Shown: positions 37,637-53,084 of the stretch, piece by piece
How positions within the stretch are numbered: position 1 is the first letter of the stretch
Layout of the letters: each line of letters starts with the position of its first letter
Assembly: GCA_020629285.1 (NCBI GenBank)
Contig: JAHDDP010000014.1
Location: 1 to 64,000, forward strand
Reading direction: 5' to 3'
Source: Maribacter sp.
Lineage (GTDB): Bacteria > Bacteroidota > Bacteroidia > Flavobacteriales > Flavobacteriaceae
DNA length: 64,000 nucleotides
Notes under the pieces: generated by a model
Database searches by the model: none
What the model was told of the DNA's origin: nothing
What the model saw: the letters and a program-made list of their open reading frames with translations, nothing else
Translations under genes and position numbers: made by a program

Positions 37637-38221
37637 ATGAAACAGGTAGGACTATACTTTGGCACCTTTAACCCTATTCATATTGGTCATTTGGTTATAG
37701 CGAACCATATGGTCGAGTTTTCAGACTTAGATGAGGTTTGGCTCGTAGTAACTCCTCAAAGTCCGTTTAAGGTCAAGAAAACGCTTTTGGATAACCACCA
37801 AAGGTTTGAAATGGTCTATGAAGCAACGAAGGAGTATGATAAGCTAAAACCTAGTAATATAGAATTTAACCTGCCGCAGCCAAACTACACGATAAATACC
37901 CTGGTGCATTTGGAGGAAAAATATCCAGAAGGATATGATTTTTCTTTGATTATGGGTGAAGACAATCTAAAAGGACTTCACAAGTGGAAGAACTATGAAG
38001 CTATTTTAGATCTCCATCATTTGTATGTCTACCCAAGAATATCTGAAGGGGTAATTGAGCATCAATTTAAAGAGCACGATAAAATTCATAGGGTTAACGC
38101 TCCAATTATGGAAATCTCCTCTACATTTATACGTAAAGAGCATAAAAATGGTAAAAACATTAAACCGTTATTACCGCCAGAAGTTTGGAAGTATATAGAC
38201 GAAATGAATTTTTATCGCTAA
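37637..38221 (+). CDS. nadD: Nicotinate-nucleotide adenylyltransferase
   Basis: A 194-residue cytosolic nucleotidyltransferase that joins nicotinate mononucleotide and ATP to deamido-NAD. The HxGH motif is at 15-18 (GTFNPIHIGH) and the distal ISSTFIRKE block matches ISSTxIR of the family. ATG 37637 is preferred over the GTG at 37631, because MKQVGLYFGTFNP is the standard beginning. It ends the yicC-gmk-nadD operon; its stop codon shares 4 bases (CTAA) with the convergent gene at 38218. Confidence 0.93.
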   Translation: MKQVGLYFGTFNPIHIGHLVIANHMVEFSDLDEVWLVVTPQSPFKVKKTLLDNHQRFEMVYEATKEYDKLKPSNIEFNLPQPNYTINTLVHLEEKYPEGYDFSLIMGEDNLKGLHKWKNYEAILDLHHLYVYPRISEGVIEHQFKEHDKIHRVNAPIMEISSTFIRKEHKNGKNIKPLLPPEVWKYIDEMNFYR

Positions 38222-38937
38222 TCTATACTACTAGCTTTGCGAAGATCATCCGTTGCAAGAAACACATCACCTTTGTTATAATACCACTTACGTACTTTTG
38301 GTATTTTGATTCCGTTTACGGTAATTAGCTCTGAAAGTAAAATGTATTCTCCGTCATTTTTGCTTTCATCATGAAAGAATTGATAGACTTCCATAGCATA
38401 TGTCTTTGGGTCGAAGTAAAAGTACCAAGTATCGTTACCTACTTCTTCATCATATGTAGCTTTTAAGACTAGGTACTCTTTTCCTTTAAAGGTTTTCTTG
38501 ATGACCTTGTTATCTATAATGGTGCCTGGATCCTTTAATTTCATTGGCAATCCGTATAGATAAGTGTAGTAGTTTTTCATCATTTTAGCGCGATCACAGC
38601 TAATATTCAAACTATCCTTTATTTTAGGAAAAATAGAGGTGCTACCATTTAATTTTAACGTACAGTGGTTATTATCCAGTTCAGATTCAATAATATAATT
38701 GTCTTTTGTTACTGTGGTCTTAAAATAATTGTTAGGTAATTTCATTTCTACCACGGTACTGCGCATACTGCTTTTTGGATTCTCCATCTCAATAAGCATT
38801 TTACCTTTAAAGGTAGACCAGTTGTTCTCTGGGTCATGAAATGCTATAGCGCGTTCTAATAATTCGTTGCCAGTCATTTCTTGAGCATGGTTTAAAACTC
38901 CAGAAAGCATAAAAATGATTAGCAAAAAATATTTCAT
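38218..38937 (-). CDS. Exported DUF6503-like protein
   Basis: A 239-residue exported protein, signal peptide cleaved near QAQ/HAQ (residue 19). The body starts ELLERAIAFHDPENNWSTFKG and has the features of a Flavobacteriaceae family that I believe is catalogued as DUF6503: TVVEMKLPNNYFKTTV, ASYMLHGLPM-like KNYYTYLYGLPMKLKDPG, WYFYFDPKTYAMEVYQFF and NGIKIPKVRKWYYNKGD. The beta-rich layout recalls LolA/outer-membrane lipoprotein carriers. It lies 28 bases after the phosphate transporter stop codon on the same strand, so it may be co-regulated with phosphate uptake. Confidence 0.72.
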   Translation of the reverse strand: MKYFLLIIFMLSGVLNHAQEMTGNELLERAIAFHDPENNWSTFKGKMLIEMENPKSSMRSTVVEMKLPNNYFKTTVTKDNYIIESELDNNHCTLKLNGSTSIFPKIKDSLNISCDRAKMMKNYYTYLYGLPMKLKDPGTIIDNKVIKKTFKGKEYLVLKATYDEEVGNDTWYFYFDPKTYAMEVYQFFHDESKNDGEYILLSELITVNGIKIPKVRKWYYNKGDVFLATDDLRKASSID

Positions 38938-38965: not shown

Positions 38966-41233
38966 TTAATCTAAAGTAGCTGGCGTAACATCGGCATCAT
39001 GCTCCTTGTAATACAGTTCTAAAAGATTCATGGTCGCAGTCATTAAATCTTTTGTCTCTAGCAAAATTGTGAAATACAAAGTTGTGTTTTTAGGACTAGA
39101 TTCTTCTGATCTGGTACGCTCTACTTGAAGGCTTATTTTTTGAGATACCAAATCATATAATTCTTGCTTGTTGTTCAAAATATTACCAATTTTTTCAAAT
39201 GATCTTTCTTCAAAAGCATGGTAAGTATTGTCTAAGATCTCCGCTAGTTTTATATCAATTTGTTTAAGCTCTTTTATTTGATTATATTTTAATTTCTTGT
39301 GGTTATTGTTAACATGCTTGTGGCTTACTTTACCGATGTATTCCAATGATTGAGAAATATCGGTTAAATGCCCCATAGCATTAATATAGAAATTACTTGC
39401 ACCAATATGAGCTTCTTCTAGATTCTTGATAAAATAGAAGGTATGATTTCTAAGATCTTCAATTTCATTCGCCAGTTTAGCGCCCTGCTTTTTGTTTTTA
39501 TGTAGCGAGTTGAGGTCTTGTTTTGCTAACCCGTTAATAGAATTAGAATATATCTTATTCGCTCTTTTCACAACATTTGCAATGTTCTTGGCACTTTCTT
39601 CGATAACCCCTTGAATAGAACTGCTCTCTGCACGTTCTAAAATTTCTTCTTCTTTAGTCTCTTTCAATTTCTTGGTATGAGAAAGGTAATTCTTGCCAAT
39701 TAATACAGTTGCAAAAATTAATAATGCGCCAATTGCATAGATGCCGCCTAGGTGAATAATGTAGGCAATAGTGGCTGCAGCTACGAATGCTACTATTGCG
39801 GTAAAGAACCATCCGCCAATAACGTTTAATACACCTGCAACTCTATATACGGCACTTTCAGAACCCCAGGCTCTATCTGCCAAAGATGTACCCATAGCCA
39901 CCATAAAAGTTACATATGTAGTGGATAATGGAAGTTTTAATGATGTTGCCAATGAGATTAGTACACTTGCTACCATTAAGTTTACAGAAGCTCTAATCAG
40001 ATCAAATGCAGGTTGGTCTTTTGCCTTTGCTTTTTGAGCGTACGAAGTTGGTTTTATGAACTGGGTGTCAATTCTCTTTTGTAATGATACCGGTACAATA
40101 CTATTTAAATTTTCAGATGCCTTGATTGAAAACTTTACTATTTGTCTGGATAAGTAATTTGGCTCAAAACGTTCTTCACCTTCATCTTGTCTAGATAGGT
40201 CTACACTAGTTTTTACAACATTTTTAGCTTTTGAAGAAAACCATAAGGTTACTACCATAATTGCACCAGAACCTAATAACAGGTATGTTGGTGTCTGTAC
40301 CGCAACCGCCAATCCTTTCATGTTGTAATCGGTAGCTAATTGTCCTGAATTTGACCAGCTCAAAAACGATTCATACGCAGCTAAAGGCACTCCAATAAAG
40401 TTTACCAAATCATTACCTGCAAAAGCCATTGCCAAGGCGAACGTACCTAGAATAATGATAATGGTGTAAATGTTCCATTTCATGAAAGTCGTTACTAGCC
40501 AAGATAATGCAAACCATATAATGAAATTCGCCAATGAAAATAATTCAGGATTATCGGAAATAACCATTGATGCTTCAGGACTAATGATAGACGTACCTTT
40601 AAGACCCTTAATAAGTATAAAATATATAATCGCCGTAATAGCCATACCACCAAAAATAGCACCTACCCATTTCGGTTTCTCATTAAATTTGAACGATATT
40701 AATACTCTAGTAATAAATTGAACAATGGCGCCAATAGTGAAAGCGACGACGACAGATAATAAAATACCTAATATGATTTCGGTCGCCTTATCTGTATTAA
40801 TGTAGTTTGAAAGTTGTGTAAAATTACCATCTCCTGAATAAATTTTTACTAAGGATATGGCAACAGCGGCACCTAATAATTCAAAAACGATCGAAACCGT
40901 AGTAGATGTAGGCATTCCCAAAGTATTGAAAAAATCTAGCAAGAGAATGTCGGTAATCATAACGGCCATAAAGACAATCATGATTTCTGCGAAGACAAAC
41001 TCCGACGGATTAAAGATTCCTTTTCTAGCTACTTCCATCATTCCGCTAGATGATACCGCACCAAAGGCTATACCGACACTGGCAACTAGCATAATGGTTT
41101 TAAAGGAAATTGCTTTTGAACCTATTGCTGAATTCAAAAAATTGACGGCGTCATTACTAACACCAACAATTAAATCTGTTATGGCTAACACAGCCAACGC
41201 AATAATCATGAATAAATATATGTTCTCGCCCAT
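38966..41233 (-). CDS. PiT-family inorganic phosphate transporter with C-terminal PhoU-like region
   Basis: A 755-residue protein from ATG 41233 (a TTG one codon earlier is possible). The N-terminal part has the PiT layout, with the signature GVSNDAVNFLNSAIGSKAIS (about 24-43) and its inverted repeat half LPLSTTYVTFMVAMGTSLADRAWG (about 435-458), and some twelve membrane helices to about residue 525. A soluble C-terminal region of about 220 residues (EEEILERAESS onward) is all-helical with repeats such as LRNHTFYFIKNLEE, like the PhoU-type domain found fused to some transporters; its identity is inferred from shape. It imports phosphate with a cation. Upstream lie 11-bp-phased TAACCTT repeats. 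Confidence 0.88.
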   Translation of the reverse strand: MGENIYLFMIIALAVLAITDLIVGVSNDAVNFLNSAIGSKAISFKTIMLVASVGIAFGAVSSSGMMEVARKGIFNPSEFVFAEIMIVFMAVMITDILLLDFFNTLGMPTSTTVSIVFELLGAAVAISLVKIYSGDGNFTQLSNYINTDKATEIILGILLSVVVAFTIGAIVQFITRVLISFKFNEKPKWVGAIFGGMAITAIIYFILIKGLKGTSIISPEASMVISDNPELFSLANFIIWFALSWLVTTFMKWNIYTIIIILGTFALAMAFAGNDLVNFIGVPLAAYESFLSWSNSGQLATDYNMKGLAVAVQTPTYLLLGSGAIMVVTLWFSSKAKNVVKTSVDLSRQDEGEERFEPNYLSRQIVKFSIKASENLNSIVPVSLQKRIDTQFIKPTSYAQKAKAKDQPAFDLIRASVNLMVASVLISLATSLKLPLSTTYVTFMVAMGTSLADRAWGSESAVYRVAGVLNVIGGWFFTAIVAFVAAATIAYIIHLGGIYAIGALLIFATVLIGKNYLSHTKKLKETKEEEILERAESSSIQGVIEESAKNIANVVKRANKIYSNSINGLAKQDLNSLHKNKKQGAKLANEIEDLRNHTFYFIKNLEEAHIGASNFYINAMGHLTDISQSLEYIGKVSHKHVNNNHKKLKYNQIKELKQIDIKLAEILDNTYHAFEERSFEKIGNILNNKQELYDLVSQKISLQVERTRSEESSPKNTTLYFTILLETKDLMTATMNLLELYYKEHDADVTPATLD

Positions 41234-41278
41234 CAAAAAATTAAATAAGGAACAAAAATGACACTATAAATTATCATT

Positions 41279-41296
41279 AAGGTTAAAATAAGGTTA
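41279..41296 (-). promoter_or_regulatory. Phased heptamer pair upstream of the phosphate transporter (PHO-box candidate)
   Basis: On the minus strand TAACCTT at 41296-41290 and at 41285-41279, an exact repeat with 11-base period and 4-base spacer. It lies 46-63 bases before the ATG and about 18 bases before a -7-like CATTTTTG (41260-41253). Tandem repeats with 11-base period are the layout of PhoB/PhoP sites. The same heptamer with the same period occurs three times before the neighbouring gene. Confidence 0.55.
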
Positions 41297-41465
41297 TGAA
41301 GTTAATATCGTATACTTCGCAATACTTGTTATACACAGGTCAACAACAAAATTTAGTTGATGAAAATACTAAATTCTTTTGGAAAAAGAATGTTTGTTTT
41401 AATATCTATATCACTTGACTAAAACCGAAGAGTGGGGTAGGTTTTATTTTAAGAGGTTGAAAATA

Positions 41466-41864
41466 TTATTTGGTTTTGTTAGCTGCTAATTTTAAGGAAC
41501 TTACGGTAGATGCTGTTGAAGAACCAACCTTTGCTGTTTTAGGTAGTGTTATGCGTTTTGCATAAAGTGTCTCTAAAATTTCAGCTTGTTCTCCTTCTCT
41601 CACCTTAATTTCTAGGTTTATAGGCTCATAGCCCACGAATTGGACCAAGATATTATGTGTGCCGGCAGCTATATCGTTAAATTCAAAATTGCCTCTAAAA
41701 TTTGTTTGGGTAGAAAGAGTGGCGTTGTCCAAACTTATAGAAGCCATCAATAATGGTTCATTGTAAAACTCGCCATCTAAAATTTTACCTTTAATAGAAC
41801 TATTTTCTTGTGCATAAGACAAAGAGCAACATACTAAAACGAATAAAATGTAAATTTTTTTCAT
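41466..41864 (-). CDS. Exported carboxypeptidase-regulatory-domain protein
   Basis: A 132-residue exported protein: signal peptide cleaved near SYA (residue 18), then a single carboxypeptidase-D regulatory beta-sandwich (about 22-100) with IKGKILDGEFYNEPLLMASI, TNFRGNFEFNDIAAGTHNIL and FVGYEPINLEIKV. The C-terminal about 30 residues are low complexity (SSTASTVSSLKLAANKTK). In Bacteroidota this domain usually forms the N-terminus of TonB-dependent receptors; here it stands alone, without receptor. Its promoter region carries three phased TAACCTT copies shared with the phosphate transporter, suggesting phosphate control. Confidence 0.8.
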   Translation of the reverse strand: MKKIYILFVLVCCSLSYAQENSSIKGKILDGEFYNEPLLMASISLDNATLSTQTNFRGNFEFNDIAAGTHNILVQFVGYEPINLEIKVREGEQAEILETLYAKRITLPKTAKVGSSTASTVSSLKLAANKTK

Positions 41865-41896
41865 AGGTAAATTAACTGTTGCAAATAAAACAACCC

Positions 41897-41947
41897 AAGG
41901 TTAAGTTAAGGTTAAGTTAGAATTACCAATATATGTTTTAAAGGTTA
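41897..41947 (-). promoter_or_regulatory. Three phased heptamers upstream of the carboxypeptidase-regulatory-domain gene
   Basis: TAACCTT on the minus strand at 41903-41897, 41914-41908 and 41947-41941. The first two are 11 bases apart and the third is three 11-base periods further, so all face the same side of the helix; each is embedded in AACTTAACCTT. A -7-like TTTATTTG (41889-41882) lies 7 bases downstream. The match to the pair before the phosphate transporter makes a shared regulator likely. Confidence 0.55.
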
Positions 41948-52478: not shown

Positions 52479-52661
52479 AACATGTGCTTTAATGAAAGGG
52501 CAAATTTAAGAAGTCTATTTCATTATAGGTCTATATGAAAGGCACGTTTTATTGGATGACCGGTTTATGTTATAATCGACACTATTTTACCTTAAGTACT
52601 TAATAAACAGTTTAATATAGCTCTAATGTAAATTTAATGTTATGTAAAAGTTACCAAAACA

Positions 52662-52736: not shown

Positions 52737-53084
52737 ATGAAAAAAATCTTAATTATAGCCGTAATGGCATTGTCTTTAGGAGCATATGCTCAAGTTGATC
52801 CTACTTTTGAAAAAGAAGGAGATAAAGTAAAAGCCACTTACTTTCACGCAAATGGAGAAAAGTCTCAAGAAGGATACTTTTTAAATGAGAAGTTAGAAGG
52901 TGAATGGAAAATGTTCAATGAAAAAGGAGAAAAAATTGCTATGGGTAACTATGAGAACGGTGTTAGAACCGGTAAGTGGTTATTCTGGGAAGGTGATGTA
53001 CAAAGCGAAGTAAATTTTGATAACAACAGAATTGCAAGTGTATCTAAAGCAAGCACAAAAGATCCTGTTGTTAGTAATAAATAA
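52737..53084 (+). CDS. Exported MORN/YwqK-type repeat protein
   Basis: A 115-residue exported protein: signal peptide MKKILIIAVMALSLGAYAQ (cleaved near 19), then three or four MORN-like repeats (YFHANGEKSQEGYFLNEKLEGEW, NEKGEKIAMGNYENGVRTGKW, LFWEGDVQSEV). Such proteins are sometimes annotated as YwqK antitoxins but no toxin is adjacent, and a periplasmic location makes that name unsafe. It is a single-gene unit with a well formed promoter and a strong bidirectional terminator. Confidence 0.8.
   Translation: MKKILIIAVMALSLGAYAQVDPTFEKEGDKVKATYFHANGEKSQEGYFLNEKLEGEWKMFNEKGEKIAMGNYENGVRTGKWLFWEGDVQSEVNFDNNRIASVSKASTKDPVVSNK

Follow-up and report, generated by a model that had tools for sequence, protein, structure and literature searches.

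TAACNTT repeats with an 11-bp period upstream of a PiT phosphate transporter are probable Pho boxes of Flavobacteriaceae

The window, a stretch of 64,000 nucleotides from a Maribacter sp. genome (contig JAHDDP010000014.1), carries a gene for a PiT-type phosphate transporter, an exported DUF6503 gene behind it, a small carboxypeptidase-regulatory-like gene upstream of it, and, next to aspS, a small MORN/YwqK-like gene. Short phased repeats precede the transporter gene and its neighbor, and a third array separates aspS from the MORN-like gene (Table 1). The genome is close to Maribacter, with PiT proteins of ten Maribacter loci 93-96% identical, and its assembly of 3,598,191 bases is incomplete (144 contigs, 83% complete, such that ~17% may be missing).

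Table 1. Genes, candidate operators, and probable promoter elements of the window, and the PhoB-type regulator gene of the same genome.
Feature	Position	Strand	Remarks
Exported DUF6503 gene	38218..38937	-	PF20113; 28 bp behind PiT
PiT phosphate transporter (PHO4) fused to PhoU-like tail	38966..41236	-	PF01384, E 9.6e-30
C-terminal 240 aa of PiT, predicted helical bundle with PhoU fold	38969..39688	-	Predicted structure and structure search
Probable -7 element of PiT promoter, CATTTTTG	41253..41260	-	TTTG starts 22 nt after box
Candidate Pho-box-like operator of PiT, TAACCTT-ATTT-TAACCTT	41279..41296	-	Exact pair; counterpart 5' of PiT in related loci
Exported 132-aa carboxypeptidase-regulatory-like protein	41466..41864	-	PF13715, PF13620
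Probable -7 element of carboxypeptidase-regulatory gene, TTTATTTG	41882..41889	-	TTTG starts 11 nt after box
Candidate operator array of carboxypeptidase-regulatory gene	41897..41947	-	Four units, one degenerate
Three 11-bp units between aspS and MORN-like gene	52625..52653	-	Present in 7/7 mapped genomes of genus
Exported 115-aa MORN/YwqK-like gene tracked by the array above	52737..53084	+	MORN_2, 22.1 bits, below curated cut-off 29.6
PhoB-type response regulator gene	C3:99270-99953		Best PhoB-model match C3:99288-99947, 214.9 bits

The first-pass annotation had read TAACCTT on the minus strand twice, 11 bases apart, upstream of PiT, and three times in the same phase (0, 11, and 44 bases) upstream of the carboxypeptidase-regulatory gene. 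Both readings are exact, with units at 41279-41285 and 41290-41296 in front of PiT, and at 41897-41903, 41908-41914, and 41941-41947 in front of its neighbor. The latter array also holds a degenerate fourth unit, TAATTCT, in register at 41919-41925 (offset 22), and the register at 41930-41936 reads ACATATA, which does not match the unit; in 11-bp steps the array thus runs unit, no match, degenerate unit, unit, unit. The exact 18-mer TAACCTT-N4-TAACCTT has two copies in the whole genome, at 41279-41296 and 41897-41914 (both minus), versus 0.088 expected from base composition. The same annotation found no further phased pair in the 64 kb, which is true of the exact TAACCTT pair but not of its variants: the third array, TAACTTT/TAACATT/TTACATT on the minus strand, was overlooked owing to the variable fifth position of the unit.

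Genome-wide counts of simple relaxed patterns, which had been proposed as a check, fall below their reversed controls. The TAACCTT pair with up to two mismatches occurs 84 times versus 120 for the reversed pattern, and the TAACNTT pair with up to one mismatch 73 times versus 133, neither being enriched across the genome. A strict box of the form TTAAC-N6-TTAAC (19 sites versus 42 in the reversed control) was rejected and replaced by the conserved TAACNTT form. The case therefore rests on position and conservation rather than on genome-wide counts.

Conservation at PiT was assessed by comparing the family motif TAACNTT-N4-TAACNTT (12 fixed bases) with the 150 bp upstream of PiT in the best 80 of 277 loci, a selection in which distant PiT loci are under-represented. 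In these 80, the best sense-strand match had zero, one, two, or three mismatches in 36, 31, 12, and 1 loci, respectively, so that 67/80 had at most one; on the opposite strand the corresponding numbers were 0, 2, 13, and 34, with the other 31 worse. Random 150-bp slices of PiT loci matched with at most one mismatch in 48 of 3838 cases, some of which are probably true boxes of neighboring genes. Kinship within genera inflates the PiT counts, and the 67 sites comprise 37 distinct ones; groups with PiT proteins only ~65-70% identical to that of the window are included, and their upstream DNA is, by eye, otherwise little alike. The first TTTG downstream of the box presumably belongs to a Bacteroidota promoter element of the type TAnnTTTG, which ends in these bases; it starts exactly 22 nt after the box in 68 of the same best 80 of 277 loci (one of the 80 has no box).

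A weight matrix derived from the 37 distinct PiT sites was applied to genes outside its training set (250 bp upstream, score of at least 10). Matrix sites were found in 28/33 loci of the carboxypeptidase-regulatory gene (none on the other strand), in 24/30 regions between phoB and its divergent neighbor, pointing away from phoB (one on the other strand), and in 55/59 loci of the MORN-like gene, directed away from that gene. When the 10 MORN-like loci fetched by box pattern are set aside, 45/49 have a site pointing away and two have one pointing toward the gene. In the PiT, carboxypeptidase, and MORN sets, half-sites are most often 11 apart; the MORN set has additional spacings of 22, 33, and 44 and the carboxypeptidase set of 33 and 44, whereas the preference for 11 is weak in the phoB set (six pairs at 11, five at 19). 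The distance from box to TTTG is 11 nt in 28/33 carboxypeptidase-regulatory loci (two without a box). Of 33 porin leaders, 19 have the 11-nt distance, six have 22 nt, one has 15 nt, and seven lack a box. The 11- and 22-nt classes differ by a single 11-bp step, the difference that one additional PhoB unit in between would make.

These patterns bear on whether the repeats could reflect a conserved promoter layout that has no dedicated regulator, or could have arisen by chance in AT-rich DNA. The genome is indeed AT-rich and relaxed motifs do not exceed their reversed controls, but the sites are strand-specific, nearly fixed in position, and arranged in 11-bp steps, and none of 26 aspS promoters without a MORN-like neighbor has a matrix site on either strand, making such an origin very improbable. 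The boxes are a real, conserved regulatory element. aspS itself was first suggested as a phosphate-regulated gene by the box in 7/7 mapped genomes of the genus and was dropped because the box occurs in only 4/30 aspS loci (30 genera, the window's own included), those with a MORN-like neighbor. At MORN-like loci, the nearest box usually lies 31-81 nt 5' of the start, and a small variable dyad, CTGnTTnTCAG, often follows the box by eye.

Outside PiT, the association with phosphate-acquisition genes is uneven. Of 30 Porin_O_P loci, 16 have a site no more than 100 nt from the frame's first ATG. The first-pass annotation had proposed to look for enrichment near pst and phoA-type phosphatase genes. 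With sites counted at the genes themselves rather than at operon starts, boxes are mostly absent from PstS and PhoX: PstS has a site within 150 bp in 4/30 loci (11/30 PstS matches being weak or partial), and PhoX has one weak site in 23 loci (most PhoX matches being weak or partial). With so few boxes, both genes were abandoned as anchors. In the window's genome, a PhoX-like gene on C47 is preceded at a distance of 81 nt by a one-mismatch site that scores 8.2 with the matrix, too weak to claim.

A candidate regulator is encoded on contig C3. The protein has receiver and Trans_reg_C domains and scores below the curated TIGR02154 cut-off of 296.2 bits, so it is called PhoB-type rather than a TIGR02154 member. 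By eye, a histidine-kinase-like ORF follows it. An exact box at C3:99172-99189 lies between this gene and a divergent lipoprotein ORF of ~430 aa, which matched no Pfam family. When the 73 sites of the genome with at most one mismatch are ranked, this site and the MORN-side array share the top score of 20.8, and the PiT and carboxypeptidase-gene sites rank next. A relative of the regulator at E ≤1e-50 is present in 30/31 family genomes examined, including its own. Judged from sequence, the repeats are, with high confidence, PhoB operators (Pho boxes) read by this PhoB-type regulator.

Other OmpR-type regulators also bind tandem direct repeats, and the boxes might serve a different member of that family, with a secondary link to phosphate. 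The PhoB model finds 36 matches in the genome, of which two are full-length, and the DNA-binding domain of the candidate matches E. coli PhoB (1gxp, E 8e-14) less well than it does some other OmpR-type chains, so that sequence alone does not name the regulator PhoB. The scarcity of boxes at PhoX and PstS points the same way. Yet of 30 genomes, all from different genera, 24 have a site beside the PhoB orthologue, almost every one of the best 80 of 277 PiT loci has a site at the transporter gene, and the box sequence equals a published cyanobacterial Pho box, which leaves a different OmpR-family regulator unlikely.

Support for assignment to PhoB comes from Flavobacterium johnsoniae, in which transcripts of a TonB receptor and a lipoprotein of the phoBR cluster rise on phosphate depletion, with FC values of 8.0 and 9.9 and of 3.1 for phoB in the table of PMC8115612 (taken as log2, following usage in its text). 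By their make-up, this phoB locus and that of the window's genome appear orthologous. Several observations nonetheless count against the PhoB assignment. Six of 30 phoB loci lack a site on the divergent side, the phoB-side site points away from phoB, the relaxed motifs are unenriched, the PhoB-type protein falls below its curated cut-off, and most PiT loci outside Flavobacteriaceae have no site. Boxes are missing at PhoX (apart from one weak site) and at most PstS loci, yet no other phosphomonoesterase in the F. johnsoniae table rises as much as PhoX; PiT is absent from that table, and OprP does not rise in it (-1.3) (PMC8115612).

The array also points away from the MORN-like gene, and PhoB may bind the boxes yet repress some targets, such as PiT or the MORN-like gene with its reversed array. 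This possibility, which is compatible with the PhoB-operator reading, would accord with the orientation counts at MORN-like loci and with PiT not being listed as induced in the F. johnsoniae table (PMC8115612). It is considered somewhat doubtful, as PiT, carboxypeptidase-regulatory, and porin boxes mostly lie 11 or 22 nt 5' of TTTG in promoter orientation, which is the usual geometry of an activator.

The repeats resemble known Pho boxes in several respects. PHO boxes have been described as two 11-nt direct repeats, each with seven conserved and four less conserved bases (PMC4415409); the sites here have at least two direct 11-nt repeats, with 6/7 bases of the unit fixed (TAACNTT). They lie about one turn or more upstream of the -10/-7 position, at 11 nt (carboxypeptidase-regulatory gene) or 22 nt (PiT) from the presumed TTTG element, and they precede phosphate-acquisition genes, namely PiT and, in 16/30 loci, Porin_O_P. 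The Pho box of the cyanobacterial regulator SphR, CTTAACCT, is an 8-bp unit with a 3-bp linker (PMC1906773), giving the same sequence with the same 11-bp period; the window array is CTTAACCT-TAA-CTTAACCT with another CTTAACCT in register, and in both cases phosphate genes lie downstream. In contrast to the SphR box, the present element is found in Flavobacteriaceae, varies at base 5, works with a TTTG-type promoter, and is associated with PiT-PhoU, carboxypeptidase-regulatory, MORN-like, and phoB-adjacent genes rather than with pst. The E. coli PhoB box is likewise described as tandem units of 7+4 (or 8+3) bp located ~10 bp 5' of the -10 element, but with a different sequence, CTGTACTA.

The PHO-box reading of the first-pass annotation thus survives in its core, an 11-bp tandem repeat kept 5' of PiT, the carboxypeptidase-regulatory gene, and the phoB-divergent gene, with the motif amended from TAACCTT to TAACNTT-N4-TAACNTT. 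Its proposal of a Bacteroidota-specific box does not stand, because the sequence equals the cyanobacterial one; the TAACNTT box is a variant of a known Pho-box type.

Within the phylum, the PhoRB system of Bacteroides fragilis includes a PhoB that binds a 512-bp pstC promoter fragment in which the box was left undefined (PMC3547664); B. fragilis has pst, whereas none was found in the window's genome (83% complete). The Pho response of F. johnsoniae is similar to that proposed here in having a phoBR cluster with an induced lipoprotein and TonB receptor, and the main text of the report contains 0 occurrences of "pho box" and of "motif" (PMC8115612). Putative Pho boxes in plcP clusters have been reported by bioinformatics (PMC4796936), and "pho box" is absent from the main text of PMC8812569. 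Among the matches listed in the literature searched, none defined a Bacteroidota Pho box; most subscription journals and all supplements were outside the scope of the search, and an earlier description is possible.

The search for exact sites extended to 16 further genomes of the genus, six of which were mapped together with the window's own. The MORN/aspS site is present in 7/7 and the PiT site in 6/7 mapped genomes. In 5/7, a site precedes a lipoprotein of the phoB-neighbor kind (adjacency to phoB being checked in the window's own genome), and in the other two a site precedes a TonB receptor with a carboxypeptidase-regulatory domain. Several further exact sites in these genomes lie inside genes or 5' of unrelated genes. 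Three recurrent candidates were left unused: a TAACTTTGGCATAACTTT site inside a coding frame in 5/6 mapped sisters, a TAACATT/TAACTTT pair 5' of two further genes (scores 10-15), and a TAACGTT pair 5' of a TonB receptor (matrix score only 8-10). The last, TAACGTT-N4-TAACGTT, occurs at G000:C16:56820-56837 and in sisters (L030, L390, L392, L402, L408, L417, and L422) 5' of a TonB receptor with a carboxypeptidase-regulatory domain; its matrix score is low, and it is perhaps the site of another regulator.

Of 30 PiT loci taken across the phylum, five have sense-strand sites 760-800 nt upstream, 5' of the preceding ORF; two of these loci are from Flavobacteriaceae and three from a single other family. 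Five further loci have sites on the opposite strand only. For another 20 PiT starts, a site is present in 5/6 Flavobacteriaceae, and the 14 from elsewhere have one clear and one marginal site (9.1). Within Bacteroidota, the motif is found mainly in Flavobacteriaceae and one other family, as detected by a matrix built on Flavobacteriaceae, with which drifted boxes elsewhere would be missed.

The PiT protein itself ends in an extension of possible regulatory interest. Structure prediction renders its last 240 residues as a helical bundle (pLDDT 83.7), and among solved structures PhoU proteins come closest (Foldseek E 9.2e-5 for 4q25, and 2.1e-4; TM 0.66-0.67). Six PhoU or PhoU-like entries align by VIA with Z 17.8-18.9 over 197-211 residues at rmsd 3.2-3.6, headed by 1t8b (Z 18.9) and 4q25 (Z 18.6), compared with Z 13.6-15.9 for plant ALMT channels. 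In this model the tail has a PhoU-like fold and is not a member of PF01895, which has no match in the genome (83% complete); within PiT, only PHO4 was found. Profiles for PstS and Porin_O_P likewise had no match in this genome. Of the best 80 of 277 loci, 43 have a DUF6503 homologue as the next gene after PiT and 60 have one within 3 kb behind PiT; this arrangement fits an operon, and from gene order the DUF6503 gene is perhaps co-transcribed with PiT.

A mechanism that joins binding, activation, a phosphate signal, and sensing by PiT is proposed. When phosphate is scarce, PhoR would phosphorylate PhoB, whose monomers would line up head to tail on the DNA, each occupying one 11-bp unit TAACNTT-N4. 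With the final unit ending 11 or 22 nt 5' of the promoter TTTG, bound PhoB would replace the upstream promoter element and recruit RNA polymerase. Within the window, PhoB would act on the gene for the PiT-PhoU fusion and perhaps on DUF6503 along with it, on the carboxypeptidase-regulatory gene, and probably on the MORN-like gene. As the 83% complete genome yielded neither a separate PhoU nor PstS, the PhoU-like tail may report transport to PhoR, an arrangement by which the transporter would control its own gene.

Much of the algal matter in the sea, a habitat often short of phosphate, is degraded by Flavobacteria. A motif shared across the family would allow the Pho regulon to be predicted from sequence in many genomes, would mark unnamed exported proteins (carboxypeptidase-regulatory, MORN-like, and DUF6503) as candidate phosphate genes, and would make phosphate sensing without PstSCAB-PhoU testable.

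An unexpected addition to this system is a candidate small RNA near the phosphate porin. The search covered 3-kb PiT flanks, 1.5-kb flanks elsewhere, and the window, and the word AGTTTTTGTC[AG]ACT gave 40 matches in 36 loci, four of which are the porin leader read backwards. The remainder comprise 34 distinct stretches, for example in L175, L178, L182, L112, L120, and L350, upstream of Porin_O_P. Carriers include Bizionia (L097, L124) and Xanthomarina (L116, L125). Each has a promoter-like end (such as GATATTTG), mostly a TGTCTTAAGACA-like hairpin, a small hairpin with the invariant word, and a terminator hairpin followed by T. Pho boxes flank the candidate in many loci; where identified, the gene upstream is MORN-like or carboxypeptidase-regulatory, and downstream is an ORF of ~400 aa, which is Porin_O_P in three checked PiT-derived loci and in the loci fetched with PF07396. 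The word is found neither in L050-L069 and L092 nor in the window.

In an alignment of 33 small-RNA sequences, 95.4% of the cells of three helices pair (shuffled 88.7%) and in 11/16 pairs both partners vary (shuffled 4.4); sliding by 1-3 columns abolishes the pairing, and the seed hairpin hardly varies. The porin leader contains the complement of the invariant word immediately after TTTG, 16-26 nt 5' of the ATG, and the complementarity runs uninterrupted over 12-19 nt in 29/34 loci. The exceptions are L124 (11 nt), L182 (9 nt), L184 (7 nt), L097, which has no such leader, and L129, where the start of the ORF was misjudged. For the 33/34 loci with a leader, each small RNA and its own leader have a mean energy of -25.7 kcal/mol versus -23.5 for swapped pairs, and 0/2000 permutations reach the own-pair mean, to which shared ancestry contributes.

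A comparison of the window and seven loci with Rfam gave no family at the gathering threshold, and the L178 small RNA had one sub-threshold match, to a microRNA family (21 versus 100 bits). Literature on small RNAs, Flavobacteria, phosphate, porins, and base-pairing did not describe the candidate among the matches listed (titles and starts of abstracts). Complementarity of the hairpin word to the start of the porin mRNA suggests that phosphate starvation would set porin synthesis post-transcriptionally, which, if true, would be a new layer of phosphate control. The chances are about even that such Flavobacteriaceae have a Pst-less Pho system in which PiT-PhoU is the likely sensor, PhoB reads TAACNTT arrays, and the boxes in many genera drive a small RNA of ~100-120 nt that sets porin synthesis.

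Maribacter and near relatives have the PiT locus in two forms. One, as in the window (L050-L059 and L092), has the order carboxypeptidase-regulatory gene, PiT, DUF6503; the other (L073, L080, L081, L083, L086, and L087) has carboxypeptidase-regulatory gene, small RNA, porin, a diverged PiT, and DUF6503. These two forms suggest replacement of the porin/PiT part of the locus.
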